Shown here: piece after piece, positions 12,976 to 59,543 of the stretch | Layout of the letters: each line of letters opens with the position of its first letter | How positions within the stretch are numbered: position 1 is the first letter of the stretch | Assembly (NCBI GenBank): GCA_021229015.1 | Contig: CM037785.1 | Coordinates: 3,626,350-3,690,349, forward strand | Length of the DNA: 64,000 bases | Source of the DNA: Solen grandis | Lineage: Eukaryota > Mollusca > Bivalvia > Adapedonta > Solenidae | Reading direction: 5' to 3' | Translations under genes and position numbers: made by a program | Notes under the pieces: model-generated | Told to the model about the DNA's origin: nothing | The model's database searches: none | Seen by the model: only the letters and a program-made list of their open reading frames with translations

Positions 12976-13075
12976 NNNNNNNNNNNNNNNNNNNNNNNNN
13001 NNNNNNNNNNNNNNNNNNNNNNNNNNNNNNNNNNNNNNNNNNNNNNNNNNNNNNNNNNNNNNNNNNNNNNNNNNN
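12976..13075. other. assembly gap (100 N)
   Basis: Exactly 100 N, the usual placeholder for a gap of unknown length. ORFs called through it are artefacts. Confidence 0.98.
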
Positions 13076-35560: not shown

Positions 35561-37475
35561 ACAGATAATAAAAAGCTTAATTATTTTACGAAACATCAAA
35601 ACCCCAAATTTTAAAATGAAAAACCGGACATTTTTATTTGGAAAACACAGAGGGGGTTTTTAGTAAGATGAATAGTGCACTAATTTATTTATTGAAAAAT
35701 TTAGATAGGTCGGTAGAAAAAAAAGAGAGGACAGAAAGTGATTTTGTGTAATAGAAACGAATAGAAGCGAGAAAATTTTATATTAAAAGGACAAATATAA
35801 AATTTACAAAAACATAAAAAAAAGTTTCATACAAAAACCAAGTAGACCCAAATTTGTTGAATTACTGAATGTTCTAATAGGAAAACATTAACAATCTTGC
35901 AAAATATATTACAAAGCAAACAAAAAAAAACGAATTTTTGAAACCGGATGTGAAAATAGTAATTTATTGTTTTTTTTAAAATTTTCGATTCTGTGTGACT
36001 ATGCAGAAATTAAATTTGGGAATTAATAGGGGGCCCGGACAAAATAAAATTTAGCTACCCATTATCAATATGTGTAAATAATGTCAGTTTGTAAATGGGA
36101 AGGTTTTGAAAGGGGGGTTTATGAAAGATGATACTTTAGGTGGTACTATGACAATTCTTTAACTTCTTGTGTTGTGGTATTACTTGGTATTAAAATACAA
36201 CTATGTCTGAAGCTATCGTCATTATTTTTATGATTTTATTGTCAATTCCTTCTTTTCTCTAAATTTCGTTTTTGTTTGGGATTAAAAAGGAGAGAAATAA
36301 AGGCAATTCTTAATTAAACCTATCCACAAATTCTTTTTAGGAAACTAAAAGATAATTTAAGGACAGGGGCCTTTTTTTTTTCGTAAACAAAAGCAGTATA
36401 TTGTGCTTTTTCTGACAACTTTAACTTGGGGGGGGATGCATTTATATATGTATAAATTAGTACCATAGGCATACGATATGAAAAGTTTTAAAATATACAA
36501 GATTAAAAATCATTAAAAATGTTGCATAATAGAAAGCAGGGGACCATTCTCCGATTATCCTACATTAAAATTTAAAAATTAAATTTAACAAGTATTAATT
36601 GATCACTAGTACATTTACGAAAAAAAAAAAGAAAACGAAATGATTATCATGTTAATAAAAAATACAGGGGATCCTTCTCCCCTTACTAAAATATAAAATT
36701 TAAAACAAGGTATCAACAATTACGAAAACAAAGAGAAGTAAAAGTGAAAGAGTAAAGTGAGAGGTGATCGGAAGAAGTGGGGGTTTTTTTTTTACGTGGT
36801 TTTAAATTTTGGGAGTAAAATTTATTATTATTGAGTGAAAATGGTTTTTAAAGTCAAAGAATTAAATAAAAATATACAAGTTACAAATTTTGGGGGATCC
36901 AGTATAAAATTCTGAGTATACCGGCGGGGAATTCCCCCTTTTTATTCCCTGGGGACGCAAACAAGGCGGGGCGAAATTTAGCAACGGGATGGGGGGGTTC
37001 CGGGTGGTAAGGGCCGGAGCCATGGGAAGGAAACCACGAAACCCGGCAGAAAATTGGCTAAACATGGTACACGGGCTGGACAGGCCGCAATCGTATCAAC
37101 TCGGGAATCCCGGGCCCAACCCTTTTAAAAGGCGGGTGTTCCGAATGGAGGACACGAAGCGGTAGGAAACGTTTAGAACCACTAAGAAAAAAAAGCGGAA
37201 GAGAAAACCCCCGCTTGTCATTTAAACAAACAGTATAGGCCCGTTGGGGTCACCCGGGGCATGTGAAGCATCATGAGGAGAGTGTCTTTTAATACAGAGT
37301 TGCATGTAAATAGGTTTTAAACCCTTTATTTTTTTAAGTACCCAGGAAAATTTTTTCAAGGTTAATGCCATGTCCATCTGTTAGCCCTTTTTTGGCATCA
37401 AAGGAAATTAAATAATTAAAAAAAAAATCATATAACCAAGCCGAAAAACAACACAAAAAAAAATAAAAAATTTTT
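35561..37475. other. low-quality sequence at contig end, nothing recognised
   Basis: AT-rich until about 36,800, then an abruptly GC-rich patch (36,890-37,250, with runs such as GGGGGTTCCGGGTGG and CCCGGGCCC). No frame is convincing. The GC-rich patch may be another repeat or consensus noise beside the gap. Confidence 0.4.
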
Positions 37476-37575
37476 NNNNNNNNNNNNNNNNNNNNNNNNN
37501 NNNNNNNNNNNNNNNNNNNNNNNNNNNNNNNNNNNNNNNNNNNNNNNNNNNNNNNNNNNNNNNNNNNNNNNNNNN
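37476..37575. other. assembly gap (100 N) truncating the viral element
   Basis: Exactly 100 N. It removes the C-terminal end of the capsid gene and everything to its left. The sequence left of the gap does not resemble the element, so the join may not be contiguous. Confidence 0.98.
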
Positions 37576-38590
37576 TTACAATCATACTCGTTTCTTTATC
37601 TCGTTTTGAATTCAAAGCAAAGAATTTATTTATCTCATCCCACTGTTGATAAGCTCTCATTCCTTGACTGTATAGTTGATTTGGTACTCCTTCTATTGTC
37701 ATTTCTACTTTTGTTATTTCAGGATTAAAATAATGTTCTGTTGATGTTCTATCCGGATCTTCAAATAACATTAGAATACCTTTCATACTTCTAGCTGGAA
37801 CATTAAGATTAATATTCCAAAGTGTATCAGATTTATTTTTTTTTATTTTCCTATGTCTAAGTATTCTATCATATAAAATAACCATCTTACCACTAAATCT
37901 ATTTCTAATTATTCTGGCTAATTCAACATCAGAAACACTTTCAAATTCTAAACAAATATTCTTAATAACATAAGAAGCATTATTATCACTAGATCTAACT
38001 ACTTTATTATAATCATTAAATGTAAGTTCATATTCAAGTCTATCTCCTAGACCCGCTTGATAAAAAGGCATATGTGTTTCTAATAATTCAAAATCGAGAG
38101 GGATACAAAATCTATTTCCATATGCCTTTGCAATGGCTTCATCTTGTTTATCTGAGGAAGCATTACCAGCTCCAACTCTATGTCTTAACATGTTTATTTT
38201 ACCAATTCCTTGGTATGCCATATTTTCACGTTCTGTAGGAGACTTCCATAAATCTGTATAACAATGAAATATATCACTATCATCAATTGAGATAATTTCA
38301 TTTCCAGATATTTTTATTGTTGTTTTTTTAATTATTGATCTTCCTATGTTTGGATATATTGTTGCATTTGCATCACTATCACTTTTGATTTCAATTTCAA
38401 ATGCTAATCTTGTTGTTCCAGGAACAATAAAATCATTACTACTTAGATTAGGAAATCTTACTAACAAATGTTGATTTTGATCAATAGTTGAAGGATTATT
38501 GCTTATTACGACGCTCTGGCGAATTCCTCTCACACCTCTAGGTTCTCTTATTCTTCTATATGGGTTTAATTTGTTTCCGTAAGTAGCCAT
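37576..38590 (-). CDS. major capsid protein-like (double jelly-roll type), C-terminus lost in gap
   Basis: 338 uninterrupted residues from an ATG at 38588-38590 to the gap. The N-terminal region has the motif RGIRQSVVISNNPSTIDQNQ (residues 21-40), a jelly-roll-like strand start VPGTTRLAFEIEI (56-68), and near residues 178-195 YQAGLGDRLEYELTFNDY, matching the pattern of the second barrel in double-jelly-roll capsid proteins. I recognise close relatives as uncharacterised, multi-copy proteins in cnidarian and mollusc genomes; assignment to the capsid fold is inference from length (family usually 400-500 residues), strand pattern and neighbours. Start: ATG follows CTCTAAAAA, like the other genes here. 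Translation beyond the Ns toward 37334 is not part of the gene. Intact as far as visible. Confidence 0.6.
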
Positions 38591-38641
38591 TTTTTAGAGG
38601 GAAAAATGGAATTTTTTAGAGGGAATTTTTAATAAATAAAA
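38591..38641. promoter_or_regulatory. divergent intergenic region with repeated TTTTTAGAGGGAA
   Basis: Only 51 bp separate the ATG of the capsid gene (minus) from the ATG of the acidic/membrane gene (plus). The box TTTTTAGAGGGAA occurs twice (38591-38603, 38613-38625). Both start codons follow A-runs (minus CTCTAAAAAATGG, plus ATAAAAATGG). A compact bidirectional promoter is inferred. Confidence 0.5.
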
Positions 38642-39581
38642 ATGGCAGAAGGAGGATATGATTTTGAAAATCCTGTGTTTGATGAAGATGATTATGATTA
38701 TGATGATTATGATGATTATGATGATTATGAGGAAACTCCTCTTATAAATAATAATTTTGATAGACAAAGTACTTATGTTATATAAAAATTAAAAAGAGAA
38801 AGATTTTTTTTTAAAAGGAAAAAATTTTATTTAAACTTTAAAGTTAGAGATAATATACTATATTTTTCCGGAAAGATGATGTTAAACTTACTAAAGGTAA
38901 TAGTTTTATAAAGTTAAGTACTTTAGAGGGTAAAATTGGAAGAGGTGCAATTAGAAACTTGTTGAATATACGTTATGAACCAATATCAGTAGAGGATAGA
39001 AAAAAATTAAAAAATGCAAATGAAATACTTTCAGAAAATATTAAATTAAAAAAAAAAAAAAAAAAAGATAATGATGAATTCCAAATAGAAAGAATCACTA
39101 AACGAATAAGAGATTTAGAGATAGAGAGAACTTCAAGATTAAAAATAGAGAAAAAAAAAAAAAACATAAAATATTAAATGAAGATACAACATTAGCAGAA
39201 AGAATAAAAACTTTATTCAGAGAACAAGGGATTACAATTGTTAGTATTTTAACCGCTTTTGGAATGATTATTGGTTTTATTGTTGAAACTCTTATTCCTG
39301 GGGGTGGTGGAACTACAACACCTAAACCTCCAGGAAAAGGAGGAGATGTAAGAGATTGGATAAAAAAACAATTATCAAATATTGCTAAACTATTAACAAA
39401 ACTTGCAGGAAAAGCGGTAGAGGCATTACCAGGAATTATTGGAGCTATTGTAGGATGGTTATTAAAAACAACAGGAAATGTTGTTGCATGGTTTGGTAAT
39501 AATTTATGGGGTTTATTAATTTTAGTTGTGGGAATGATATATACAGCTGTTAGTGCTCCGCAGCCGAACAAAGTTCATTAG
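38642..39581 (+). pseudogene. virion membrane-protein-like gene, frameshifted
   Basis: The ATG at 38642 opens a 48-residue acidic N-terminus with a (D)DYDDY run ending in a stop near 38785. The reading then continues in other frames: basic/coiled-coil part 38959-39177 (KKLKNANEILSEN, ITKRIRDLEIERTSRLKIE) and, after a 14-A run near 39153-39166, a C-terminal part to 39581. The last 105 residues have a hydrophobic segment, a Gly-rich loop GGGGTTTPKPPGKGG, an amphipathic stretch ISNIAKLLTKLAGKAV-like, and a final membrane segment NLWGLLILVVGMIYTAV, ending QPNKVH. I recall the same order in uncharacterised repeat-encoded cnidarian proteins. A role as a capsid-associated or internal membrane protein is inference. 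Frameshifts fall at A/T runs, so they may be sequencing errors or true decay. Its stop overlaps the convergent gene at 39578 by four bases. Confidence 0.55.
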
Positions 39582-40893
39582 AGAACATATTCATAAATAA
39601 ATAAACTTAAAAGACCTATTGTAATACTTCCTATTATAATAGATATTTTATCATCTTCATGTGTTTCAATTGAAGGTTCACTAGTCCGGACTTTGTCTGT
39701 AGGTTCTGGTAAAGATTTTCTTGTTTTTGTTCCAATTAGTTCAACATTTTTCTTTTTAGGAACAGGTTGATTATTTATTTCATTATTTATTCCTAGTTTT
39801 TGATTATTAGTGGCTACTGTAATTTCATTATTATAATCTTGTATTGTTCCAATTCTTAATTCCATATCACTAGGAGACATATATAATCCTATTCCATAAA
39901 CATAATCAACTTTACTTCTTGCATATTTTAATGTGTTTACATAATTTAATATTTGACTATGTAAATCTATAGGACTGTTTATAACATCTTCAATGTTAAC
40001 TAAAAATTGTTTTTGAGCATCAAATGCCGTTCCTGTTCCTAAAATACTTGTTCTAGTTTGAGATTGTGCTCTAAGAATAGCCCAACAATATGTTCTTATA
40101 GAATCATTAATTCTTTCAACTCCTGCTTTTGTAAAACCTTTTGAATCATCAAGAATAAAAGTTGTCCACATGTTTTTAAATTCATCTGGTTTTTGATATA
40201 ATCAATATGAACTTTTTTAGGTGGGAGATATTCACATTTTGAAATACCACAAGTCTTCCTCCAGGTACTTCAGGACCAAATGTCATTTTTGAAATCTAAA
40301 TTTTGAGAAGTGCTGCTTTTTATATGTTGTGAAGAATTATCTCTTCTAAAATCTGTTCTTTCCCAAGCTGTATGACTTGTTGTATATACAATTCCAAGAC
40401 CTTCTTTATGTCTCCAATCTACATTAGGATCTACTTTATTAAACTCTTTACATACTCTTTCATAAGCTTCTCTATCATAATTATTATTAAAAGCATTCCA
40501 ATTTTTATCTTGTGGAAGAGTAATAGATAATTCTTTTAATATTCTTCTTGTTTGATAATAAATATGGAATAAGAATAAAGAACCCGTTAACCCTCCTACC
40601 TCTATATGATTTTTTATATCAACTCCACAACCTGTGGTTGAACACCAAATAGCAAAGTTTAATTGATTTTGCCAAAATAACATCCAATCACTTTCCCACC
40701 TTTCTACTATTTCTTGTGATTTAACATGTGGTAATAAATATTTTTCAAATATATTAGGGAAATCTGCATTAAAACTTTTTCCATCTGATGAAATTATTAT
40801 TTTTTGGTTTATAATGTTGAGTGTTTTTTTATTAAACTCTCCTCCATGTAAATACTTAATATCACTATTATATTTAAAAGCTTGTGGAATCAT
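39578..40893 (-). pseudogene. second structural protein-like gene with C-terminal membrane anchor, frameshifted
   Basis: Two long open pieces in different frames: an N-terminal 207 codons (40893-40270; YLHGGEFNKKTLNIINQKI, WMLFWQNQLNFAIWCSTTGCG) and a C-terminal 197 codons (40171-39578; AQSQTRTSILGTGTAFDAQK, then a polar linker and a final hydrophobic helix IIIGSITIGLLSLFIYEYVL). Short coding remnants lie between them in other frames, so one gene of roughly 430 codons is broken by at least two shifts. In relatives I remember, the two parts form one uncharacterised protein. Its position next to the capsid gene suggests a minor capsid or penton-like protein; not demonstrated. The terminal helix would place it in a membrane. 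Start ATG at 40891-40893 follows GATAAAAA. Confidence 0.55.
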
Positions 40894-40909
40894 TTTTTAT
40901 CAGTAAAAA
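40894..40909. promoter_or_regulatory. 16-bp divergent spacer between two start codons
   Basis: TTTTTATCAGTAAAAA separates CAT (minus ATG, 40891-40893) from ATG (40910-40912). The near-palindrome TTTTTTATCAGTAAAAA recurs before the second fibre-like copy (41801-41816). With no room for host-type leaders, either transcripts have almost no 5' UTR or the promoters lie inside the opposite gene. Confidence 0.5.
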
Positions 40910-41793
40910 ATGTATCATATAATTTCTAATATTGATAAACCTATAAACCTACAACAATATATAGATAATAAACATGGAGATAAGAAAATTAGATTAAAAA
41001 GTTTTAATTATACTATAGGATGGTATAATATAGAAAATATTCAAATAATGGGTTTTCAAATTCTCCACTCAAACATTTAAAAAAAAGAGATATATCAGAA
41101 TCAATAAAAGAAACATTTAAAGTTTGGATAGAAGAGCATGAAAAAAATTTAAAACGGGCAGGGGACGAGGAAACGAGAAAGATAATAAGAGAGGCAATAA
41201 AAAGAATTAAAAAGGAAGAAAGAGATTTTATAGAAAGAGAAAGAATAGAAGAGTTAGAAAGAGAAAGAATAGAAGAGTTAAAAAGAGAAATAGAAAGAGA
41301 AAGAATAGAAGAGTTAAAAAGAGAAAGAGAAAGAATAGAAGAGTTAGAAAGAGAAAGAGAAAGAATAGAAAAGTTAGAAAGAGAAAGAGAAAGAATAGAA
41401 AAGTTAAAAAGAGAAAGAATAGAAGAGTTAGAAAGAGAAAGAGAAAGAATAGAAGAGTTAGAAAGAGAAAGAGAAAGAGAAAGAATAGAAGAAGAGAAAA
41501 TAAAAGCTAATACTATTAGTATTCCTACTAATTATAAACAATTATATATTCACCTTGAACAAATAAATAGTGCTTATAATTTTCATAATGGAGCACCTAG
41601 TAAAATCTTAGGAGTTGTTCCTGTTGAAAATAAATCATTTGGAGATATTGTTAATATTATTTTTGATAATTCAGAGTATAAAAAATTAACTATAGGAAAT
41701 ATTTCTGAATTAACTATAAGTGTTTGTGATGAATGGGGAGAAAAAATAAATAACCATGGATATCCAATGAATTGTGTTTTAGAAATCATATAA
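40910..41793 (+). pseudogene. fibre-like protein copy 1 with charged coiled-coil centre, one frameshift
   Basis: The N-terminal domain (40910-41035; MYHIISNIDKPINLQQYI, TIGWYNIE) is in one frame. The rest, ending TAA at 41791-41793, is in another, with a shift near 41035-41050. The centre is about 85 residues of ERERIEELE/KRERERIEEL heptad-like repeats, a long charged helix. The C-terminal ~86 residues (YKQLYIHLEQINSAYNF, SKILGVVPVENKSFGD, YPMNCVLEII) match copy 2 closely. Head and tail domains joined by a helical shaft suggest a fibre or spike, but this is inference. Tandem with copy 2, start boxes nearly identical. Confidence 0.5.
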
Positions 41794-41816
41794 AATTCAT
41801 TTTTTTATCAGTAAAA

Positions 41817-42540
41817 ATGAATCATATAATTTCTAATATTGATAAACCTATAAACCTACAACAATATATAGATAACAAGTGTGGAGATAAGAGAATTGGA
41901 TTGAGGAGTTTTACTTATACTATAGGTTGGTATAATATAGTTAATCAATATATAAAACATCATTCTTTAGACCAAAAAAACATTCCAGATGGTTATTATA
42001 ATTTCCAACAAATAGCTGATGTATTTAAAGAATATTATAATGATAATATAGAATTATCTGTAAATGAAAAAACTGGTATTGCTTGTTTAACAATAAGAAC
42101 AGAGAAATTTTAAAATTAAAAAAATTTTAATAAGATTAATACAAATGTTAGGATTTAAATATTTTATGAAAGAGAGGGGATTAATATTAGGACCATCTAT
42201 AAATGTTAATGCTAAACCAGGGGATGTTGTTGTTAATAAACCATGCTATGGTGAACAACCAATAGATTTAGCTCCTTATAAACAACTATATGTTCATCTT
42301 GAACAAATAAATAGTGCTTACAATTTCTTTAATGGAGCATCTAGTAAAATCTTAGGGGTTGTTCCAGTTGAAAATAAAGCATTTGGAGATATTGTTAATA
42401 TAAACTTTAGTAATCCAGAGTATAAAAAATTAACTATAGGAAATATTTCAGAATTAAATATAAGTGTTCGTGATGAAAAAGGACAAAAAATAGATAATCA
42501 TGGATTACCAATGAGTTGTGTTTTAGAAATTATTCCTTAG
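41817..42540 (+). pseudogene. fibre-like protein copy 2, one frameshift
   Basis: Starts at ATG 41817, not at the upstream non-ATG codon of the longer frame, because the box TTTTTTATCAGTAAAAATG matches copy 1. The first 98 codons (NHIISNIDKPINLQQYIDN, RIGLRSFTYTIGWYNI, DGYYNFQQIADVFKEYY) end at 42113. The remainder (42145-42540, 131 codons: LGFKYFMKERG, YKQLYVHLEQINSAYNF, LPMSCVLEIIP) is in another frame, with the shift in an A/T-rich stretch. The centre (about residues 42-150) is an ordinary globular sequence, unlike the coiled coil of copy 1. Ends are ~85-90% identical in DNA to copy 1. Function unproven; probably a structural protein of the same virus-like element. Confidence 0.55.
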
Positions 42541-42605
42541 TGTTTCACAGCCGGACAAAGTCTATAGTGCCACGCAGTGTTTCACAGCTGTTCCATAGCT
42601 GGAAT
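42541..42605 (+). repeat. GC-rich CAGCCGGAC dispersed repeat
   Basis: GTGTTTCACAGCCGGAC, TAGTGCCACGCAG and a second TGTTTCACAGCTG lie between two genes. Variants are inside the gene at 43161 (43211-43272, twice), at 39681-39700 inverted, and at 39551-39577. Confidence 0.6.
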
Positions 42606-42619
42606 TTTATTCCATAAAA

Positions 42620-43111
42620 ATGAGTATATTCGGTTTTAAAAAGTATATACTAGATGAGAGTAAGATAACTTCATATTTTAATAATTTAAAGTCAAATTTT
42701 GACAGTGAATTATTTAATAATTTAAAGTCAAATTTTGACAATGAATTATTTAACATTTTAACAAGATTAGACCATGTGGTAAAAAGAATAGAGGAATCCT
42801 TAAAAAACATTACAATAAGTGCTGAAATAAAAGGTTCTTTATTTAAAGGTAAGGTGTTTTCATTTGGAAATGCCGGTAGACAAAAAGATGTTGGTTATGT
42901 TGTGATGAGGCGTGGTTATATTACTGGTATTGGTCTGTCGAGTAAAAGGACAAGTGGTGAAGTGCGAGTTGGTGTGTTGGTGGATGGAGAGCTTTTAAGT
43001 GGGTGTGAGATTACTTTGCATACAACACCAGCAAAACATGATAATTTTGAACGCCCTTTTTTAGTTGAGGCTGGAAGTGTTATTAATTTTGTTAGTCTGG
43101 TTAGTCTGTAG
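42620..43111 (+). CDS. small virion-like protein with tandem N-terminal repeat and beta-rich C-terminus
   Basis: Intact 163-codon frame from an ATG in CCATAAAAATG. Residues ~20-46 contain two tandem copies of FNNLKSNFDxELFN, predicted helical, followed by a helix up to the VVKRIEES region. The C-terminal ~95 residues (ITISAEIKGSLF, GYVVMRRGYITGIGLSS, VRVGVLVDGELLSGCEITLH, FLVEAGSVINFVSL) alternate strands and turns like a small beta-sandwich. A helical stalk plus beta head resembles fibre-type virion proteins; this is inference and no family is assigned. No signal peptide or membrane segment. Spaced 79 bp from copy 2 and 49 bp from the next gene, all on plus. Confidence 0.5.
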   Translation: MSIFGFKKYILDESKITSYFNNLKSNFDSELFNNLKSNFDNELFNILTRLDHVVKRIEESLKNITISAEIKGSLFKGKVFSFGNAGRQKDVGYVVMRRGYITGIGLSSKRTSGEVRVGVLVDGELLSGCEITLHTTPAKHDNFERPFLVEAGSVINFVSLVSL

Positions 43112-43160
43112 TTAATACTGTTGCCTCGTTATTGTTTGAATTCAAATAATATATATAAAA

Positions 43161-43817
43161 ATGAAGAAACTAACAGCCCCAAATTTATACCCCGATTTAA
43201 ATAGTGAATCTAGTGTTTCACAGCCGGACTTTATCCGTAGTGCTACGCAGCCGGACTTTATCCGTAGCGAACTCCAGGAACCAAGTCAAAATTATAGATT
43301 GCAAAAAATCTCAGAGATTGAGAAAACATTAATTAATGAGAGAGATACTCGTAAAGCATTATATAAAAAATATAAAAGAGGAATAAATATAACAGATGGA
43401 GTAGACACAGCTTTAATGTCTACTAGTATAATTATAGGAACTATTGGTTTAATTGTTCCTATTCTATTTCCGTTAGAAATTGCAGCTCTTGTATGCGGAG
43501 GAGTTGGAGCCTCTATAAAAATTGTTAGGCTTAAATTTATGAATAAAATTAAAAAACATGATAATATTAAAACTATTGCTAACAGTAAATTAAATAGTAT
43601 AAAAAATTTAATCTCTAAAGCTTTAACAGATGGAGAGATATCTGAACAAGAATTTAAACTTATATTAGATGAATTAGAAAAATATAATGAGCTTAAACAA
43701 TTAACAAAAAACTCTGCGGTTCCAAAAAACTATTCAGAAGAAGAAAGGCAAAAATTAATAGAACAGGGGAGAAAAGAGGCAATGGAGATAATATCCAAAA
43801 ATATAAAAACTGTATAA
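43161..43817 (+). CDS. membrane protein with coiled-coil tail, part of the viral module
   Basis: Intact 218-codon frame, ATG within TATATAAAAATG. Residues 17-36 hold two tandem copies of SQPDFIRS/TQPDFIRS, encoded by the GC-rich repeat. Then a helical NYRLQKISEIEKTLINE (44-60), basic KKYKRGINITDGVDTA, one or two membrane segments (about 84-122: STSIIIGTIGLIVPILFPLE, IAALVCGGVGA), and a charged helical C-terminus (SKALTDGEISEQEFKLILDE). I recall near relatives as a multi-copy uncharacterised family in cnidarians, always repeat-associated. Internal virion membrane protein is a plausible role, not shown. Last gene before the palindrome. Confidence 0.55.
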   Translation: MKKLTAPNLYPDLNSESSVSQPDFIRSATQPDFIRSELQEPSQNYRLQKISEIEKTLINERDTRKALYKKYKRGINITDGVDTALMSTSIIIGTIGLIVPILFPLEIAALVCGGVGASIKIVRLKFMNKIKKHDNIKTIANSKLNSIKNLISKALTDGEISEQEFKLILDELEKYNELKQLTKNSAVPKNYSEEERQKLIEQGRKEAMEIISKNIKTV

Positions 43818-44012
43818 TATTGAATTTTTATAATACGTTAGAAAACCCTCCTCCTCCATATTCAGAGTGAGGATTTTTATATAAATGTAAAAGGGGTTCA
43901 GGAAAAAACACAAATTTTTTATTTTTTTTCATTGTTGTTTTTTTTAAAAGTTTACACATGTGTTTTTTTAAATTTTACATTAGTGTGGTTTTTTTGATTT
44001 TTTATCACAAAT
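43818..44012. other. AT-rich tail of the viral element
   Basis: T-rich non-coding sequence with a short palindrome ACACATGTGT (43956-43965). No gene. Confidence 0.4.
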
Positions 44013-44098
44013 AGTAGTTATAGAATGGAGCGTGCCTGGCTTTGGAGGAGTGGGGGGGGGGGGGGGGTGAGCCAGGCACGCTCCATTCTATAACTACT
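44013..44098. repeat. perfect 29-bp inverted repeat with G16 loop
   Basis: Arms 44013-44041 and 44070-44098 are perfect reverse complements (core ATGGAGCGTGCCTGGCT), with a 28-nt loop containing 16 G. It lies exactly at the junction between the viral module and a host tandem-repeat unit that begins TGGGGTCACTTGAT. It may be the element's terminal hairpin or part of a terminal inverted repeat. Confidence 0.75.
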
Positions 44099-44598
44099 GG
44101 GGTCACTTGATTTTACATAGACATATATAAGAAAAACTAGAAAAAACTTCTTGTTAGAAACCACTAGGCCTGGAGTTTAGATATATGGTGTGTAACATGG
44201 CCTTATGGACATCTACCAAGTTTGTTCAAAACATAGCCCTGGATTCAAAATTGGCCCCATCCCAGGGGTCACTTGATTTAACATAGACTTACATAATTTA
44301 TGAAAGATTTTTAAAAGATACCCTTGTCAGAAACCACAAGATCATGGGTTTAGATATTTGGTATGTAACCTGGCCTTGTGGACCTGAACCAAGTTTTCAA
44401 ATCATGGCCATGGGGTCAAAATAGGTCCCACGCTAGGGTTAATATGGTGTTTTGGACCACATGTAAACTTTATGTGTGGAATTAAAATTATATTGCTGTT
44501 CTTCTGTATTGATTTTGTATTCAGTATGACTATATTGTAAAAGGCAATAAAAGCAAAATTTCTCAGGTGAGCGATTCAGGGCCATCTTGGCCCTCTTG
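44099..44598 (-). mobile_element. modular element end, inverted, ~165-bp units
   Basis: Two to three inverted units of the ACCCCTGGGGCGGGGCC family, then a unique block and the terminus CAGGTGAGCGATTCAGGG...GGCCCTCTTG ending at 44598, which is the inverse of the CAAGAGGGCC start seen at 57610 and 59544. Confidence 0.6.
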
Positions 44599-44750
44599 TT
44601 CCAATATAAGTCTATATAAAATCAAGTGACCCCTGGGGAGGGGTCAATTTTGACCCCAGGGCCATGACTTGACCTACTAAGCTATGTTACACACCAAATA
44701 TCTAAACTCCAGGCCTTGTGCTTTCTGACAAGAAGATTTTTCTTGTTTTT
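44599..44750 (+). repeat. ~165-bp unit, left flank of a nested insertion
   Basis: A plus-oriented unit (CAAGTGACCCCTGGGGAGG to AAGATTTTTCTTGTTTTT) that is interrupted at 44751 by another element. The unit continues in the same register at 55608 (CCTATATGAGTCTATG). Confidence 0.55.
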
Positions 44751-47035: not shown

Positions 47036-48022
47036 TCACCACCTAAAATGGCGTTTTGGTCCCCTGTTGTCTTCCTTCCTACCGTCACCTCTGTCCGTCT
47101 GTCGATGTCTGCCTGGTTCCTGTCTTGTTCTGCTGTCATGTTGCTGAATTTCTTGCCGAGGTTGTTTTAAGCATGACTCTGCTAGGCGGGTCACAGCCCT
47201 TGATTGGTCCTCCACTGCCTTTGCGAGGTCCCTAACCGCTCTGGTGTTGCTGTTGATGGCTTCGACAATTCGGTCTGTAGAGGTCACCCATCTCTGCATT
47301 GACTGAGCTGAGGAGCTGGAGGAGGAGGATGATGATGATGAAGATGGCGAATCTGTTCGCCGCCTCTTTGCCGATTCCACTGGTGCTGCAGCAGGTTGTG
47401 GCTCTTCAGCAATGACAGGTTCTTCGTCAAGACCCATCAACGACGGCAGAATGTTAATTAAGTCATTGCTGGTTGACCTAGATATTGTCAGGTCAAGAGG
47501 TTCATCAGGGGTGATATTTACATGGCGTTGGTCAGGCTGGGACTGACCGCCCTCGGGTAGGGAGGCCACCCAGCTTGAGATACCATTTGGAAACACCTCC
47601 CCAACTACCTCTCCTAGGAGGTCATCCTGTCTCTCCGGCAGTTTCTTCAGGAAGAATGCCCTAGAGACTTCCTTGCTCAGTACACACCAGTCACTTAGGC
47701 CAAACTTATAGGGGTCCTTGCTGACTTTCAGGTACGGTGCACTGTCCATCACTCCAAGCGCCTTAGCCTCTCTAACGTGCCGTTTATGTTTTGTGACATG
47801 ATCATCAAGTGGGAACCTCGATGTACATTTAAAGTTACACTAGGTACAGTAATAAGGTACCCTATCCAACCCAACATGCATTCTTAGGATGTGGTCTTCA
47901 ACTCTTCCCTTCACATCAATGACCTGGTTCCCTTGTTCCTTGCACCGAACGCACTGATAGGCTCTTCCCTTATGTTTTGCAGCCTTCTCTCTGTCTGTCC
48001 CTGTTCTTGATTTTGATGACAT
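47036..48022 (-). pseudogene. retrotransposon ORF3: C2H2-type zinc-finger protein, one in-frame TAG
   Basis: The frame starts at ATG 48020-48022 (MSSKSRTGTDREK) and runs to 47036 with a single TAG at 47840-47842, about 329 codons in all. Finger 1 is CVRC-x16-HILRMH; finger 2 is C-x2-C-x12-H-x3-H and the TAG falls between its two cysteines. Beyond are an acidic Pro/Ala region, a basic KRRR patch, a run of about a dozen Ser, a heptad-like helix (RIVEAINSNTRAVRDLAKAV), and an Arg-rich tail. It has no signal peptide or membrane segment, so it is not an envelope protein. A pyrimidine-ended CCTTCTGATTGCAG splice acceptor lies just upstream (48032-48046), suggesting a spliced subgenomic mRNA. Nuclear or nucleic-acid binding role inferred from fingers and basic tail. 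Confidence 0.6.
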
Positions 48023-48603
48023 TCTGGTAGTCTGCAATCAGAAGGTACCATTATTAAGTTACATGCTTAGGTTGGTACATGGTCACTTGTAATAAGACCC
48101 CCCCCCCCCCCAGGATTTAGGTAGTAGAAAACAACTCGATTTCGCAGTTGCCGATTTTTATTTTGAAAATACGTCATGACATATATGTTTAAACTCTATA
48201 ATGTCGGTGTCAGATTAATCTCCTCGGAAGAAATGGCACGATACATCACCCTCGTGAGTAAACCCGGTTTATTCTACGCGCGTTCCTGTGTCCTCTATTT
48301 CTCGCAACTTCTCATTAAGCCATCTACACCACATGTTAGATGCTATCTCTCCGACCTTTCACGGGTCCAATCTCCGTCTTCATTCTCCATCTTTACCTAT
48401 CCCAAATGCCCAGATCTTCTACCTTTTTCCCAAAGAAGGCTAACTTTACCCAGCTTATAGGACATCGGCTTTTTTTTTTTTTTACGACGAACAAAACTCC
48501 AAGTCTGAAGATAAAATAACAACCAACAGAACTCTAATAAATTTTGCTTTATTTCTCTTTGATTACAGTTGATTAAAATAAGGAGGTGATCGTGAAATAC
48601 AAT
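48023..48603. other. pol-ORF3 spacer
   Basis: Contains the ORF3 splice acceptor, a C14 run (48098-48111) and a T-run near 48471-48483. No convincing coding on either strand. Confidence 0.4.
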
Positions 48604-51600
48604 TTAATCTCTCTTCAGAGGACGAAGTCCTCTCTTAGCCCTTTTTGTCCACTTTGGAGGGTTTGTACCCTCATAGGGCTTAAGTTTGTCGTGATGAACA
48701 AGTTTTCCTTTCCCCTTGGCATCAAGCTGTATCACAAAAGTCATTCCTGCTAATGCCGTTTTCACCAAATATGGCCCACAATAAGTTCTTTCCAACTTAT
48801 GCGCTACGCCGATCTTCCTGTCTTCTGCTGAACATACAAGATCTCCTGACTCGTAATTGTTTGTTGACGCCTTGACATCATACATCTCATTGTTTCTCTT
48901 AGCAGCATTTGCTAGATGCTTCCTAGCCACTTGATGGGCACGCTGCATATTGTCTTTCAGCTCCTGTATATATGATTCATAAGAGATGACATCTTTTCCA
49001 TTTGTCGTCTCACTACCATACACAAGCTCCGCAGGAAGACGTGTTTCTCTTCCCATCGCCAGCATGTTTGGGGTAAGTTTGGTGGATTCACAAGGTGTTG
49101 ATCTGTATGCACCAGCCAAACATCCCAGGTTGAGATCCCAGTCAGTCTGTTCCCCACAAAGGTATGCTTTAATCATGTGCAGTAAAGTGCGATTGAATCT
49201 TTCAGATTGGCCGTTCCCTTGCGGGTGCCTTGGACTTGACCTACTTTTCCTGACCTCTAATAGTCTACACAGGTCCTTGAATACATTGCCTTCAAACGTC
49301 CTGCCTTGATCACTGTGGAAAGTCAAGGGACAACCCCATCTTGAAATAAATTCATTCAAGATCTTACTGGCACATACTTCTGCTGTTTGGTCAGGCACTG
49401 CCATGATTTCCACATACTTTGTAAAATGATCTGTCAGGAGGAGAATATATCTGTTGCCTCTTAGCGTAAGTGGCAATGGTCCAAGGTAATCCATTGCAAC
49501 TACATCCCATGGTGCTCCCGTATTCAAACTACCTAGTGGGGCCTTCGGAACCTTCATTGGCTTCTTGTCGGCTGCACAGATATCACATCTCTTTATAAAC
49601 ATGGCAATATCACTTTTCATGTCATACCAGTAAAACCTTTGTATTGTCCTCTCCTTAGTCTTCTTACACCCAAGGTGACCAGATAAAACAGAACAGTGCA
49701 TTTGCTCAAGGATCTCTTGCTTTATACATGAGGGTACCACCAGTTGTTTGTAAGTTCCAGTCTTATCTTTCTTCAGAAAATGCTTCACCAACAAGCCATC
49801 TTTTACTTCTAACGTGTCCCATAAGAGCCAATACTGTCTTGTTGCAGGGCTCATAATTGTCATCTCTTTTGCAGAAGGTTTAATGCCTTCTTTCTTTGCA
49901 TTTATAATAGGTCCAATGTGGATATCTTCTTCTTGCAATGACCTCAGTTCAGACAGGGATTTACTGCTTATCCACACATTAGGGGTACTGTTAAAAGAAT
50001 CCGACTGGTTCGGGCTTTTGACATGCAACCTCTCTCCTGCATTGCACTTCTGATTTATCCCTCTCATCTTTTCGACCTTATTTCTTTCTCCTTCAGTGGT
50101 GGCTACTTTATTTTCCAGATATTCTGTCCCAGCATATGATCCCTTTATTGCCATATCTCTGGCGCGTTTCATACATTTGTTGCATGGACCACATTTTAGT
50201 GATTCAGACATGTCAACATCATCACATGTACAATCTTTGGGATTTTCACATCTAGAGAGTGCATCACAATGTCCTTGCTTTTTCCCTGGTCTGTACTCTA
50301 TGGCAAAATTATATTCCGACAACACTTCGATCCATCTTGCAATTTTCCCTCGTGGTTCTTTCAATTTAAATAGCCAAGTTAAGGCCTGATGGTCTGTTCT
50401 AACCAGGAATCTCCTTCCAAGCAGGTATTGTCTAAAGTATTCGATAAAGTATCTTATGGCTAGGAGCTCTTTCTCTGTTACGCAGTAGTTAGATTCGGTT
50501 CTATTTAGTGACCTGCTTGCGTATGCTATCACCCTTTCCCTCCCATTCTGTATTTGAGATAGCACAGCTCCTATTCCTACATTCGAAGCGTCCGTGTCCA
50601 ATGTAAATTCACCTCCTCCATTTTGTGGATATCCCATCACCTGTGGACTTATTAAGAATTGTTTGATTTTTTGGAATGCCTCCTCGCAGTACTCTGACCA
50701 CACAAACTTGGTTTCCTTTTTAGTCAGCTCTGTTAATGGTTTTGCAATCTTGGCAAAGTCCTTTATAAACCGTCTGTAGTATGATCCCATTGCCACGAAT
50801 TGTTTAACTTGTTTTGAGTTATTTGGTCTTGGCCACTCCAAGATTTTTGCTATATTCATCAGGTTTGGTTTTATCCCCTCTCCAGATATGACATGACCTA
50901 AAAAGGCAACTTCTTTCTGCAAAAGTTCACATTTTTCTGGTTTGAGTTTAAGATTGGCAGCTTTGATTCTATCTAAAACTTCCCCCATTCTTTGTACATG
51001 ACTGTCAAAGTTTGTGCTGAAGACGATGATGTCATCAATATATATCAGACAAGTTTCCCATTGCAATCCTTGTAGAGCCAGTTCCATCGTTCTCTGGAAT
51101 GTGCTACCACTGCAGTTAAGTCCAAAAGGCATACGTGTCATCTCGAAATGTCCGTATTTACAACAAAAAGCACTTTTGGGAATATCCTCCTGTTTAAGTG
51201 GAATTTGGAAATATCCACTAGTGAGGTCTAAAGTACTAAACAGGCACGATCCCGACACGGCGTCCAGACAATCCTGTATGCGGGGCATAGGGAACCCATC
51301 TGGCTTGACAAGCTCATTGACCTTCCTGTAGTCTATGCAAGGTCTGACAGATCCATTCTTCTTTCTTACTAGTACAATTGGAGATGCCCATGGTGAGGTA
51401 CTCTTCCTGATTACACCCTTGGCTAGTAAATCTTCCACAGCCCTTTTCTCTTCATCAGCATAAGCTAATGGAACACGTCTTGGACGTTGCTTTATTGGCA
51501 GAGCGTCACCAGTATTTATTGAGTGTTCAGTCAGATTTGTAAGACCTAGGTCCCATTCATTCTTTGAAAAGCAATCTTCATATTTCTTAAAAAGGTTAGC

Positions 51601-52599
51601 CACAGCAATCTGCTCATCTAAAGTCTTTTCCTTACATGTTTTGTCAAACAGCTCTTTTAAGTGTGGTGGGACTTCTGGTAAGACACGATCCTCTCGTTTC
51701 ATGGGTTTCTTACAACATGTGTTGAGTAGACAGTGGTTATTAAGCTGGATTCTTTTGATAGCTGAATTGTTCTCTCTTTCACTCTCATGCTCTTGATCTG
51801 TTAAAATGATAGGCTGACTGCTGATTTCCTCTGCGTAACCTACTATGGTATCTTGTCTTATAGTTACTGGTTGCTGGAAAGGGTTTAACAACCTAACTTT
51901 GTTTGTCACATTATGTTTTATATCAACCAAAGCTGCCGCCATCTGGAGTGGATGCTTCTCTTGAAAAGCTATGTTCGGTTCAATAACATATTCTGATATC
52001 ACTGCGTTATCATCTCTCTCTCCTCTTTCTACAAACACATCAATAATTGCCTCACAGTAGCCAGGTATTGTGAAATCATCGGCAGCTGCCACCTTCCTCA
52101 TTTTTCCTTCCAGTCCTATTTGGATACATGGTATCTCTTTTCCCTTCATCATGATGACCCCTTTACTCAGGATTATATCTGCAGGTCCTTCCTCTCCGTT
52201 TTGTAAAATATCTATCCCCAAAAGACATGCATCTTCTATGTCAGCGACAATTACTTCCTTCTGCAGCTCTAGTTCTCCCAGTCTAAGTGAAAAATGAGCT
52301 TTTCCTATTTCTTTTAATGGTGTGCCGCAAGCTGCAGTTAGACATGATGACTTTGCTAGCTTTGGTCTTTTGTCAGGGCTGATCTGGTTAAACACTCTCT
52401 CTGACAGTACTGTCCTAGAAGCACCTGTATCTGCGGTGAAATTAATCGGTATATCTTCTATTGAACCTTTGATGTACACCCCAGTACAATAGGTTTTCTT
52501 TCTGCGAATCACTCCCTCTTTTCCTGAACCTAATGTATTTTCACAATTTTGACCTTGATTACAATTTAAGGCATCCCCTTGGTCAACAGGTTCAGCCAC
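48604..52599 (-). CDS. pol: Pol polyprotein: protease, reverse transcriptase, RNase H, integrase
   Basis: 1,331 open codons. Aspartic protease with DTGAS at residues 57-61; reverse transcriptase from about 370 to 590 with LDLTSGYFQIP (catalytic D458) and YIDD (520-523); RNase H beginning FTLDTDAS (666-672) with TDHQALTW near 735; integrase zinc-binding H968/H975/C1005/C1008, catalytic D1037, D1097, E1133 (spacing x35 for the last pair), and a GPYLV module with KLVHHDKLKPY near the C-terminus. All key residues are present. The frame has no ATG at its start; it begins in the -1 frame relative to gag, entered at TTTAAAC (52605-52611), so Pol is expected as a Gag-Pol fusion cleaved by its own protease. 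Works in reverse transcription and integration of the element. Typical Ty3/gypsy length. Confidence 0.95.
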   Translation of the reverse strand: MAEPVDQGDALNCNQGQNCENTLGSGKEGVIRRKKTYCTGVYIKGSIEDIPINFTADTGASRTVLSERVFNQISPDKRPKLAKSSCLTAACGTPLKEIGKAHFSLRLGELELQKEVIVADIEDACLLGIDILQNGEEGPADIILSKGVIMMKGKEIPCIQIGLEGKMRKVAAADDFTIPGYCEAIIDVFVERGERDDNAVISEYVIEPNIAFQEKHPLQMAAALVDIKHNVTNKVRLLNPFQQPVTIRQDTIVGYAEEISSQPIILTDQEHESERENNSAIKRIQLNNHCLLNTCCKKPMKREDRVLPEVPPHLKELFDKTCKEKTLDEQIAVANLFKKYEDCFSKNEWDLGLTNLTEHSINTGDALPIKQRPRRVPLAYADEEKRAVEDLLAKGVIRKSTSPWASPIVLVRKKNGSVRPCIDYRKVNELVKPDGFPMPRIQDCLDAVSGSCLFSTLDLTSGYFQIPLKQEDIPKSAFCCKYGHFEMTRMPFGLNCSGSTFQRTMELALQGLQWETCLIYIDDIIVFSTNFDSHVQRMGEVLDRIKAANLKLKPEKCELLQKEVAFLGHVISGEGIKPNLMNIAKILEWPRPNNSKQVKQFVAMGSYYRRFIKDFAKIAKPLTELTKKETKFVWSEYCEEAFQKIKQFLISPQVMGYPQNGGGEFTLDTDASNVGIGAVLSQIQNGRERVIAYASRSLNRTESNYCVTEKELLAIRYFIEYFRQYLLGRRFLVRTDHQALTWLFKLKEPRGKIARWIEVLSEYNFAIEYRPGKKQGHCDALSRCENPKDCTCDDVDMSESLKCGPCNKCMKRARDMAIKGSYAGTEYLENKVATTEGERNKVEKMRGINQKCNAGERLHVKSPNQSDSFNSTPNVWISSKSLSELRSLQEEDIHIGPIINAKKEGIKPSAKEMTIMSPATRQYWLLWDTLEVKDGLLVKHFLKKDKTGTYKQLVVPSCIKQEILEQMHCSVLSGHLGCKKTKERTIQRFYWYDMKSDIAMFIKRCDICAADKKPMKVPKAPLGSLNTGAPWDVVAMDYLGPLPLTLRGNRYILLLTDHFTKYVEIMAVPDQTAEVCASKILNEFISRWGCPLTFHSDQGRTFEGNVFKDLCRLLEVRKSRSSPRHPQGNGQSERFNRTLLHMIKAYLCGEQTDWDLNLGCLAGAYRSTPCESTKLTPNMLAMGRETRLPAELVYGSETTNGKDVISYESYIQELKDNMQRAHQVARKHLANAAKRNNEMYDVKASTNNYESGDLVCSAEDRKIGVAHKLERTYCGPYLVKTALAGMTFVIQLDAKGKGKLVHHDKLKPYEGTNPPKWTKRAKRGLRPLKRD

Positions 52600-52882
52600 T
52601 AGCAGTTTAAATGTGGCGTCAGATTTTGCTTTTTTCCAGCTTGATCGAATTCTTTACTCTGATGGCTGGATTTATGGTCATGTCGATTGAAGGCCCTTTT
52701 TTCTGTATTTCTCACGGGACAATCCCTTGCATAATGTCCATGATTTTGGCAGGCAAAACAGGTTACGATCTTCTTCCTGGTAAAATTTTGTTCATGGTTT
52801 TTTTTTTTTTTTGTCCAACGTTGTTTCGTAAACTGTTTGTTCTTTGGGATTTGTTGTTTGGTTTCTTAGGTTCCCCTCTGTA
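52599..52882 (-). pseudogene. gag: gag C-terminal (nucleocapsid) segment, out of frame with capsid part
   Basis: After the gag TAG at 52883-52885 the same frame continues for about 28 basic codons to a 15-A run (52798-52812). Beyond it a different frame encodes a CCHC zinc knuckle (CFAC-x4-H-x4-C: CFACQNHGHYARDC, near 52712-52756) and ends at TAG 52599-52601. The knuckle identifies the nucleocapsid domain that binds genomic RNA. One nonsense codon and one homopolymer shift therefore separate it from the capsid domain. Confidence 0.75.
52605..52611 (-). promoter_or_regulatory. -1 ribosomal frameshift heptamer TTTAAAC
   Basis: On the minus strand gag codons read T TTA AAC, followed by TGC TAG. 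A -1 slip gives TTT AAA C and enters the pol frame directly. This is the canonical X XXY YYZ signal in exactly the right phase, one codon before the gag stop. Confidence 0.85.
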
Positions 52883-53917
52883 CTATCTGGTTTCTTTGTC
52901 ATATTGGGTTTTGTTGTCCTTTTTCCCTTCTCTAAACTGGTTCGCTCTCTCCTCTTCTATCCTCTCGCCTTCATCCTCTGCTTCGCTGTCGTGTGATATT
53001 GTTTGTCTTACCATCTTTCTCATTTTCCGTTCATTGTAAAACGATCTATGTTTTGTCTGTATCAGGTTCACGACATGATATACAGCCTCGTCTATATTGG
53101 CAGGCTCTTTGTGGAATTCAACTTCAAATCTGGTTTCTGGATCTCTCAAGCCATCTAAGAATCTTCTTACCAGATCTTCTTGTCGGGTTCTATTGTCCCG
53201 ATATTTGTGTGCCTTGTCATACAGTCGTGTCAGTTCTGCGGCATAATCCTCAGCTGTTTCATTCATTTTCTGGTCTCTATTGCTGAACTTTACTGCAAAT
53301 GTTCTGCTTGTTTCGATGACTCTGTATCTGTTGCTAATTTCTGAAACCAACTGTTCGTAATCACGCAGTGCCTGTCTTGGAAGTTGGGAGTAGACAAACT
53401 CTCCTGCTCCCCCCTGCAATTTAGGTAACAAATGATCAAGTTTGTCCTCATTGTTCCATCCAAATCTTTCCGCCATCACCTCAAATCTATTTCTCCATAC
53501 CTGCCAGTCGTCTTTCCCTGTAAATGCAGGTAATTTAATTTCTCTCTTGTTTGGACCCCGGAAATTTTCTGACTCTAATAAACCATGAGGTGTTTGCACT
53601 GGTCGAATGAAAGTTCTTTCTTCATTTTCCAGTTCTGTAGTTGATGAGTATTCTCTCTGACTCATATTCCTCTCAGGTTGGTTATTCTGAAGTCTGTTTT
53701 TATCACCCTTGTCATTTTTGATATCGTACAACAACGATACCATGCTTTCCAGGACTCCACTGATCTGGTGAAGAGTACCCTTTATTTCCTGTTGGTCACT
53801 CATGGTGGTATTCTGGTTGTGATTCATGTCTACTCCACCATTCTGCACTTCAGCTTGTCGTAAGTTGAGGAATACCTCTGTTTCGGATTCCGCTTCTGTA
53901 ACTTCTCTCGGATCCAT
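52883..53917 (-). CDS. gag: Gag, matrix/capsid part, ends at premature TAG
   Basis: 344 codons from ATG 53915-53917. The N-terminal ~110 residues are acidic and polar; then a capsid domain of the retrotransposon Gag type begins at LPAFTGKDDWQVWRNRFE and extends through LDHLLPKLQGGAGEFVYSQL, RQEDLVRRFLDGL and NIDEAVYHVVNLIQ. It assembles the particle that packages element RNA. The frame stops at TAG 52883-52885 in a basic linker before the zinc knuckle, which is not the usual end of Gag; the true C-terminal part lies at 52599-52882. The TAG could be a point mutation. Upstream of the ATG is a short untranslated leader following the 5' LTR. Confidence 0.85.
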   Translation of the reverse strand: MDPREVTEAESETEVFLNLRQAEVQNGGVDMNHNQNTTMSDQQEIKGTLHQISGVLESMVSLLYDIKNDKGDKNRLQNNQPERNMSQREYSSTTELENEERTFIRPVQTPHGLLESENFRGPNKREIKLPAFTGKDDWQVWRNRFEVMAERFGWNNEDKLDHLLPKLQGGAGEFVYSQLPRQALRDYEQLVSEISNRYRVIETSRTFAVKFSNRDQKMNETAEDYAAELTRLYDKAHKYRDNRTRQEDLVRRFLDGLRDPETRFEVEFHKEPANIDEAVYHVVNLIQTKHRSFYNERKMRKMVRQTISHDSEAEDEGERIEEERANQFREGKKDNKTQYDKETR

Positions 53918-53959
53918 GCTTTCTTCACTTCAGGATATAGGTTCGATCACTGGATCTGC

Positions 53960-58800: not shown

Positions 58801-59543
58801 ACAAATTGTTGACGACGCACGACGACGGACGCCGGACGAAGGGCGATCACAAAAGCTGACCTTGAGGACTTTGTGCTCAGGTGAGCTAAAAACTTGAAAA
58901 ATCTTCTTCTCAGAAACCACAAGACCTGGAGTTTAGATATTTGGTATGTAGCATGATCTTATGACTCTCTACCAAGATTGTTCAAATCATGACCCTGAGG
59001 TCAAAATTGGCCCCGCCCCAGGGGTCACATAGGCTAATATAGGAAAAACTTGAAAAATCTTCTTCTCAGAAACCACAAGGCCTGGGCTTTAGATATTTAG
59101 TGTGAAGCATTGTCTAGTAGATCACAACCAAGTTTGTTCAAATCATGGCCCTGGGGTCAAATTTGGCCCTGCCAAGGGGTCACCTGATTTAACAAAGGCT
59201 AATATAGGAAAAAAAATTGAAAAATCTTCTTCTCAGAAACCACAAGGCATAGATTTAAGATATTTGGTATGTAGCATGATCTTATGACTCTTTACCAAGA
59301 TTGTTCAAATCATGACCCTGGGGTCAAAATAGGCCCAGCCCTAGGGTTCACTTGATTAAACATAGGCTAATATAGTAAAAACTTGAAAAATCTTCTCAGA
59401 AACCACAAGGCCTGGGGTTTAGATATTTGGTGTGCAGCATTGCCTAGTAGATCACTACCAAGTTTGTTCAAATCATGGCCCTGGGGTCAAAATTGCCCCA
59501 GCACCAGGGGTCACTTGATTAAACATAAGCTTATATAGAAAAA
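55867..59543 (-). mobile_element. modular element, inverted, ~165-bp tandem core
   Basis: Begins with the degraded hairpin AGCTCACCTGAGCAC...GGTGAGCT and a GTCCGTCCGTCGTC tract, both inverse to the right end at 5950-6030. About nine inverted units follow (marker AAACCACAAGGCCTGG near 56140, 56304, 56640, 56972, 57299, 57468), a 57610-58887 insertion, then four more units to 59543. No ORF. Confidence 0.65.
57610..58887 (+). mobile_element. modular element with ~320-bp core inserted into the array
   Basis: 1,278 bp from CAAGAGGGCCATAATGGC to GCTCAGGTGAGCT, inserted between ATATAGG and CTTGAAAAATC of a ~165-bp unit, with A4/A5 runs on either side as the only possible target duplication. GCCATGG markers near 57754, 58068, 58388 and 58672 show four units, the last interval shortened. 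Confidence 0.75.

Follow-up and report, generated by a model that had tools for sequence, protein, structure and literature searches.

Polintons (Mavericks) are the systems with which our locus is most readily compared. The parts of PMC8097293 that describe vertebrate Mavericks list the following features, all of which are shared with the element reported here: an (AGT)2//(ACT)2 end motif, 6-bp target site duplications (TSDs), PolB, an rve integrase, a packaging ATPase, a capsid gene, intron-less genes and purifying selection. Marine molluscs also have Mavericks, according to a statement in the same paper (PMC8097293, citing Haapa-Paananen 2014). Here we analyze a window of 64,000 nucleotides from the bivalve Solen grandis (contig CM037785.1, positions 3,626,350 to 3,690,349; positions without a contig name are those of the window), in which a sequence-only reading had pointed out a compact block of capsid-like and other putative structural genes at 37576-44098. 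We find that this block almost certainly makes up the structural part, on the right-hand side, of a single damaged copy of an integrating, virus-like Polinton (Maverick) that is present in high copy number, an assignment that draws on sequence comparison with other copies in the same genome.

Copies, ends and gene content of the element

We used the capsid frame of the block as the query in a six-frame search of the same genome (1.32 Gb, 811 contigs). At least 127 matches with 74-100% identity were obtained, 119 of 966 candidates having been scored and some copies giving two rows. Many of the matches sit in an open frame of 419-423 codons, stop codons are present in 13 of the 127 listed, and every contig from C1 to C19 has matches. 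These are many more matches than chance would produce; the capsid gene is a dispersed, multi-copy gene, and the genome contains over a hundred copies of the element. Likewise, the packaging ATPase that adjoins it in other copies gave at least 150 matches (150 scored of 429 candidates).

For five copies, the flanks upstream and downstream of the capsid gene were compared as separate pieces. Four of the five have terminal inverted repeats (TIRs) that are 91-99% identical over 224-331 bp and start with AGTAGT, and the TIR coordinates give element lengths of about 15.3, 14.7, 15.2 and 14.3 kb. The right end of the window block aligns with the ends of the TIR-bearing copies and stops at 44098, such that the end of the block coincides with the element end determined from the other copies. 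Judged by this alignment, the segment 37576-44098 represents one end of a Polinton (Maverick), whose exact right end is 44098.

Perfect 6-bp duplications lie directly outside the element in all four TIR-bearing copies, as read by eye from the printed junctions. Seven further copies were taken as inverted pairs of TIR matches spanning 13.0-14.1 kb, with their ends as 181-base pieces, and perfect 6-bp duplications were observed in five of them. The total for all testable copies is nine of nine, a count that leaves out two of the seven further pairs and the window copy, whose left end is missing. The genome search with the TIR scored 40 of 619 candidates, and the number of ends seen is a lower bound. 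A contaminating free virus or an assembly artefact, as opposed to integrated DNA, might be suspected from the scaffold gap at which the window copy breaks off; given the matches on each of C1-C19 and the duplications in every testable copy, we regard this explanation as practically negligible.

The two TIRs of a copy differ little from one another: outside the terminal hairpin described below, mismatches were found at 8/155, 0/261, 2/254 and 2/235 aligned positions. Therefore, some of the insertions are young, and the element was apparently active recently. We calculated a median dN/dS of 0.26 for the capsid (18 intact frames from ~16 copies; 147 pairs whose dS exceeds 0.02) and of 0.15 for the ATPase (38 intact frames from about 32 copies; 695 pairs), and by this measure the intact capsid and ATPase frames are under purifying selection. 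Open frames and dN/dS values below 1 would also be expected for a domesticated, virus-derived gene cluster that has been retained for host use. Domestication is contradicted by the dispersed copies of the same genes, those with read ends having their own TIRs and TSDs, and the window copy is itself broken in several genes; we did not adopt this explanation, which we consider highly improbable. For the same reason, ordinary intron-bearing host genes are excluded as the setting of the relatives of these frames: these are further copies of one frame, scattered over the genome, with TIRs and target duplications where the ends were read.

The sequence-only reading had seen structural genes in the window and no replication genes, and had proposed a virus-derived, Polinton-type element. 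Both parts of this proposal are borne out by the other copies, in which TIRs, 6-bp TSDs, PolB motifs, an integrase and an ATPase are found. On the 3' side of the capsid gene, these copies have an A32-type packaging ATPase (Pox_A32, E 1.4e-13), followed by short frames and then by a minus-strand polymerase block. One small frame (L013:1804-2277) has a weak match to the Sak single-strand annealing protein (E 0.0035), and its product is a possible recombination helper. The polymerase block opens with an endonuclease VII domain (Endonuclease_7, E 4.1e-10), and its PolB pieces contain LYLDANNLYG, KLMNNSFYG and DTDS, which we take to be motifs A, B and C, respectively. These pieces are homologous to single frames of 1286 and 1313 codons in two IMG/VR contigs, both of which contain DANNLYG, a motif B and DTDS. 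Near the far end of the element lies a plus-strand integrase with a DUF5679 match (E 3.7e-13) followed by an rve match above its cut-off (E 5.9e-11). This integrase has the catalytic spacing DD35E and resembles prototype foamy virus (PFV) integrase (E 2.3e-9) in sequence searches of the PDB, which were significant for the integrase only. An intact integrase frame of 250-350 codons was present in only one of the fetched copies.

The capsid gene product is likely to be the major capsid protein. The Pfam model Capsid_N matched at E <1 in all ten copies scanned, the best match being that of L009, which at 24.0 bits equals the cut-off of 24 (E 3.2e-5); the match of the window copy (E 0.002) is under the cut-off. 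These matches give only indirect support to a putative double jelly roll fold. An AlphaFold2 model of the capsid protein made without an alignment had a mean pLDDT of 32.5 and was not used for fold searches.

With this set of genes, the integrase would insert the linear DNA into the host, the polymerase would copy the element DNA, and the capsid proteins and ATPase would form particles and package the DNA. Transposition or reinfection would then bring copies back into germ-line genomes. In fish Mavericks, strong purifying selection on capsid genes is taken, in the passages of PMC8097293 on this point, as evidence of particle formation and reinfection. By analogy, the same reading would be a reasonable, if unproved, one for the present element.

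Several observations weigh against the assignment to a Polinton (Maverick). The capsid call depends on a borderline profile match and on gene position, and the PolB assignment leans on sequence motifs: neither the PolB pieces nor their IMG/VR relatives gave a match to any Pfam polymerase model, and PHROGs gave a single weak match labeled DNA polymerase (E 0.0079). An adenovirus-type cysteine protease is usual, though not universal, in Polintons/Mavericks. No cysteine protease match was found at E 0.1 among the frames scanned, which were a part of all frames, and diverged proteases can escape such a scan; nor was a penton recognized, the other structural frames scanned giving no significant profile match. 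Only one end was seen in the fifth of the compared copies (L017/L018), and the 6-bp duplication rests on copies other than that in the window, which is without its left end. Finally, the dN/dS sets consist of intact frames of the capsid and ATPase, with broken copies left out and some loci representing the same copy twice.

We also considered whether the element is an adintovirus. Adintoviruses are animal viruses whose hexon is adenovirus-like, whose PolB bears an N-terminal OTU-like domain and whose integrase carries a chromodomain at its C terminus. Their gene set is alike in outline (PolB, rve integrase, ATPase and capsid), and a contig of the clam Tegillarca is reported, in a passage of PMC11071296, to have adintovirus-like virion proteins. 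However, the 314-aa integrase of L019 gave no chromodomain match at E 0.1 and has DUF5679 as its N-terminal domain, and in our element an endonuclease VII domain stands ahead of the polymerase. Single-protein searches of viral_contigs with the capsid and the ATPase found no relatives, the capsid search being sensitive to close relatives only. Membership in the adintoviruses was not adopted, and we consider it unlikely. The integrating, virus-like Polinton (Maverick) is the reading we retain below.

Layout of the window copy and its surroundings

The window was read over 36900-44700 and the frames were listed there. They lie at the coordinates given by the sequence-only reading, in a strand-switching block with no visible introns. 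The count of seven reading frames in that earlier reading needs correcting, as several of them are fragments of single genes. The features of the window copy are as follows.

37476..37575, assembly gap of 100 N, the expected place of the element's other half
37576..38590, minus strand, likely gene for the major capsid protein, with 338 of its about 422 codons present and the 3' end cut off by the assembly gap
38640..39581, plus strand, broken remnant of a coiled-coil/membrane protein gene that is a single frame in L012 (436 codons) and L014 (370 codons)
39578..40893, minus strand, gene broken into two frames (40270-40893 and 39578-40171) with a C-terminal hydrophobic stretch
40910..41793, plus strand, fibre-like paralogue 1, a split frame with a Glu/Arg-rich repeat stretch at about 41231-41478
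41817..42540, plus strand, fibre-like paralogue 2, a split frame (41817-42113 and 42145-42540), paralogue of 40910..41793
42620..43111, plus strand, 163-codon frame with a helical stalk and then a beta-rich part in a low-confidence model (mean pLDDT 48.2)
43161..43817, plus strand, 218-codon frame (261 codons in L014) with a hydrophobic stretch
43781..44098, right terminal inverted repeat, 90% identical over 333 bp to the far-end repeat of copy L015
44013..44098, terminal hairpin with 29-bp perfect arms and a C-run loop, 44098 being the last base of the element

The frames 39578-40171 and 40270-40893 are halves of one gene, which L014 and L012 have as single frames of 480 and 445 codons, respectively. 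No significant relative of this gene was found in Pfam or the PDB, and its position makes its product a minor capsid candidate. Similarly, one of the two fibre-like genes is a single frame of 236 codons in L014, and both are split in the window copy. As with the capsid, the model of the 163-codon protein was made by AlphaFold2 without an alignment and was not used for fold searches. In the window copy, the gene for the coiled-coil/membrane protein is split, as are the 480-codon gene and the two fibre-like ones, and the copy is probably a fossil. What had been orphan frames are now part of a defined and abundant element, and its structural proteins can be studied as virion proteins.

To the left of the gap at 37476-37575, none of the element genes searched for matched within the window, and the sole integrase-like match in the window belongs to a retrotransposon (48.6-52.7 kb). 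Because the gap begins precisely where the capsid frame breaks off, we infer that the rest of the window copy was lost in assembly. Loss to the assembly gap is the most likely fate of the missing half, and a deletion is a possible alternative.

This retrotransposon occupies 47039-53929 on the minus strand and is presumably of the Ty3/gypsy type. Its gag lies at 52886-53929, and its pol frame at 48607-52653 (1349 codons) encodes protease, reverse transcriptase, RNase H and integrase; the adjoining 47039-47839 had no Pfam match. Satellite-like arrays are found at 9679-11799 and 57655-58521, with a period of about 316-319 bp, and at 56114-57609, 59027-59544 and 59965-61721, with a period of about 163-166 bp. 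Next to the L013 copy, immediately beyond its end, lies sequence that matches the 9679-11799 array. A second assembly gap of 100 N is located at 12976-13075.

A polymerase insert and hairpin ends

In three of the five copies read (L011, L015 and L017), PolB motif C is split after its D by an insert. The other two copies (L013 and L019) have an empty site, and the same place reads as an unbroken ASDTDS. The insert starts with SVLGDTPII, and its last residue is Asn, followed by TDS, in L011 and L017, the copies in which the far junction is readable. The profile intein_Nterm (TIGR01445) scored 26.9 bits in L011, above its cut-off of 24.5, and 13.8 bits in L015, under it. The L017 insert matched LAGLIDADG_3 (E 3.7e-12) and, under the cut-off, Intein_splicing (17.6 vs 35.8, E 0.0035). 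A weak polymerase-labeled match in the PDB searches (E 0.017) also pointed to the insert. The insert is therefore best described as a predicted intein with a LAGLIDADG endonuclease, for which splicing is likewise predicted. It is about 345 residues long in L017. In both L011 and L017, its length does not divide evenly by three; thus, the frame is disturbed in the copies read.

The region of the intein site gave 157 matches, of which 150 were listed. Eighty of the listed matches cross the site unbroken, 55 start between -20 and +3 residues of it, and 15 start later. The 55 that start at the site are candidate intein-bearing copies. Divergence between copies is 2.7, 2.8 and 5.3% for the intein, as compared with 6.5, 7.1 and 5.8% for the N-terminal extein and 3.0, 5.0 and 5.3% for the C-terminal extein, values that lend at most weak support to recent homing. 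In intein-bearing copies, the polymerase would be active only once the intein has spliced itself out, and the intein endonuclease could convert intein-free copies. The presence of intein-bearing and intein-free copies in one genome allows a test of homing.

Metazoan genomes are said to lack inteins in the parts of PMC8529194 and PMC5784728 that address them, and if the host is an animal, the intein would be a counter-example to the claim as worded there. Polinton polymerases carry homing-endonuclease inserts that are attributed to intein invasion, according to a statement in PMC11071308 (citing Jeong 2023), and therefore such inserts are, going by that statement, not new as such. Our element is like those polymerases in having an endonuclease-bearing insert inside the polymerase. 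It differs from the account in that part of PMC11071308, with which it was compared by description only, in that splice junctions and a precise empty site are seen within one family in one genome. In our literature search (intein with Polinton, Maverick, molluscs or metazoan polymerase/transposon), none of the titles or abstract starts listed describes this intein case.

A fold-back from base 1 was observed at both ends of four copies and at the right end of the window copy, and the outer 16 bases of the arms match perfectly at all nine of these ends. For comparison, a perfect 16-base fold-back within 140 bases occurs at 10 of 19,841 random positions of the window. Five copies were set against one another over the first 24 bases, which gave ten comparisons. 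The changes in the 5' arm that were mirrored in the 3' arm numbered 0/1, 1/1, 7/7, 7/7, 0/2, 6/6, 6/6, 8/8, 8/8 and 2/2, and the two arms mostly change together; L014 and L020 also show unmirrored changes in the 3' arm. A further 14 ends were sampled, 12 of them with a resolved start; seven of the 12 have the fold-back and the other five, which belong to three copies, lack it. Of these three copies, two are flanked by perfect target duplications, and the third is outside the duplication count. The ends of L064, L065, L067, L072 and L073 have the usual AGTAGTTATAG start, no second hairpin arm and an A-run/TG repeat stretch instead, and the L069 end has the inner arm only, with a short direct repeat in place of the outer arm. 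Overall, hairpins were found at 16 of 21 resolved ends. On the strength of the other five, we rejected the idea that all ends of the element have to be hairpins.

The hairpin is a real feature of the element and is not indispensable to it. It is probably maintained by copying or correction between the arms, and that the endonuclease VII domain resolves it is speculation. A hairpin-end strategy is known from poxviruses and parvoviruses, and the mirrored arms raise a testable question of how Polinton ends are replicated. A more ambitious proposal joins the two features: a Polinton lineage with a still-mobile motif C intein, contradicting the view that metazoan genomes lack inteins, and with concertedly evolving hairpin ends that would be copied through fold-back, or else be resolved by an endonuclease VII domain encoded in the element itself, in the manner of poxviruses or parvoviruses rather than as plain protein-primed ends. 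As a whole, we hold this proposal to be possible but doubtful. No title or abstract start among those listed by our literature search (Polinton/Maverick with hairpin, terminal inverted repeat or palindrome) describes hairpin ends, and neither of the hairpin passages in PMC6431247 and PMC12747079 describes Polinton ends.

Comparison with known systems

An alignment search of viral_contigs with a polymerase piece found no relatives, both of its patterns being at the start of the piece and off the polymerase motifs. A degenerate DNA pattern for LDANNLYG gave seven contigs, two of which are related to our element. These are the IMG/VR contigs L054/L058-L059 (17,398 bp) and L052/L060-L061 (15,128 bp). 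Their PolB is 35-49% identical to ours in segments, an endonuclease VII segment is present in both (33 and 29%), and an rve integrase (30%) is present in the first. Their capsid-like frames have 477 and 439 codons, the former with a weak Capsid_N match (E 0.028). Both frames are collinear with the N-terminal part of our capsid at a level that is not significant (hhalign E 0.037 and 0.39; probability 1.4 and 0.15 per cent). The capsid of these contigs was not found with our capsid as the query, and searches with their own capsid-like genes returned only themselves. Neither contig has an intein at motif C. The 15,128-bp contig, which may be complete, has perfect TIRs of 123 bp and no base-1 hairpin, and no TIR was found in the 17,398-bp contig.

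Unlike the vertebrate Mavericks, as they are described in the parts of PMC8097293 concerned, the present element has no recognized protease or penton, carries an endonuclease VII domain ahead of PolB and, in some copies, has the motif C intein. For fish Mavericks, the same parts of that paper give dN/dS values much lower than ours. Most ends of our element have a base-1 hairpin, and the words hairpin and intein are absent from the main text of PMC8097293. The element itself is of the known Polinton/Maverick type, and the unusual intein polymorphism and hairpin ends are the features most worth following.

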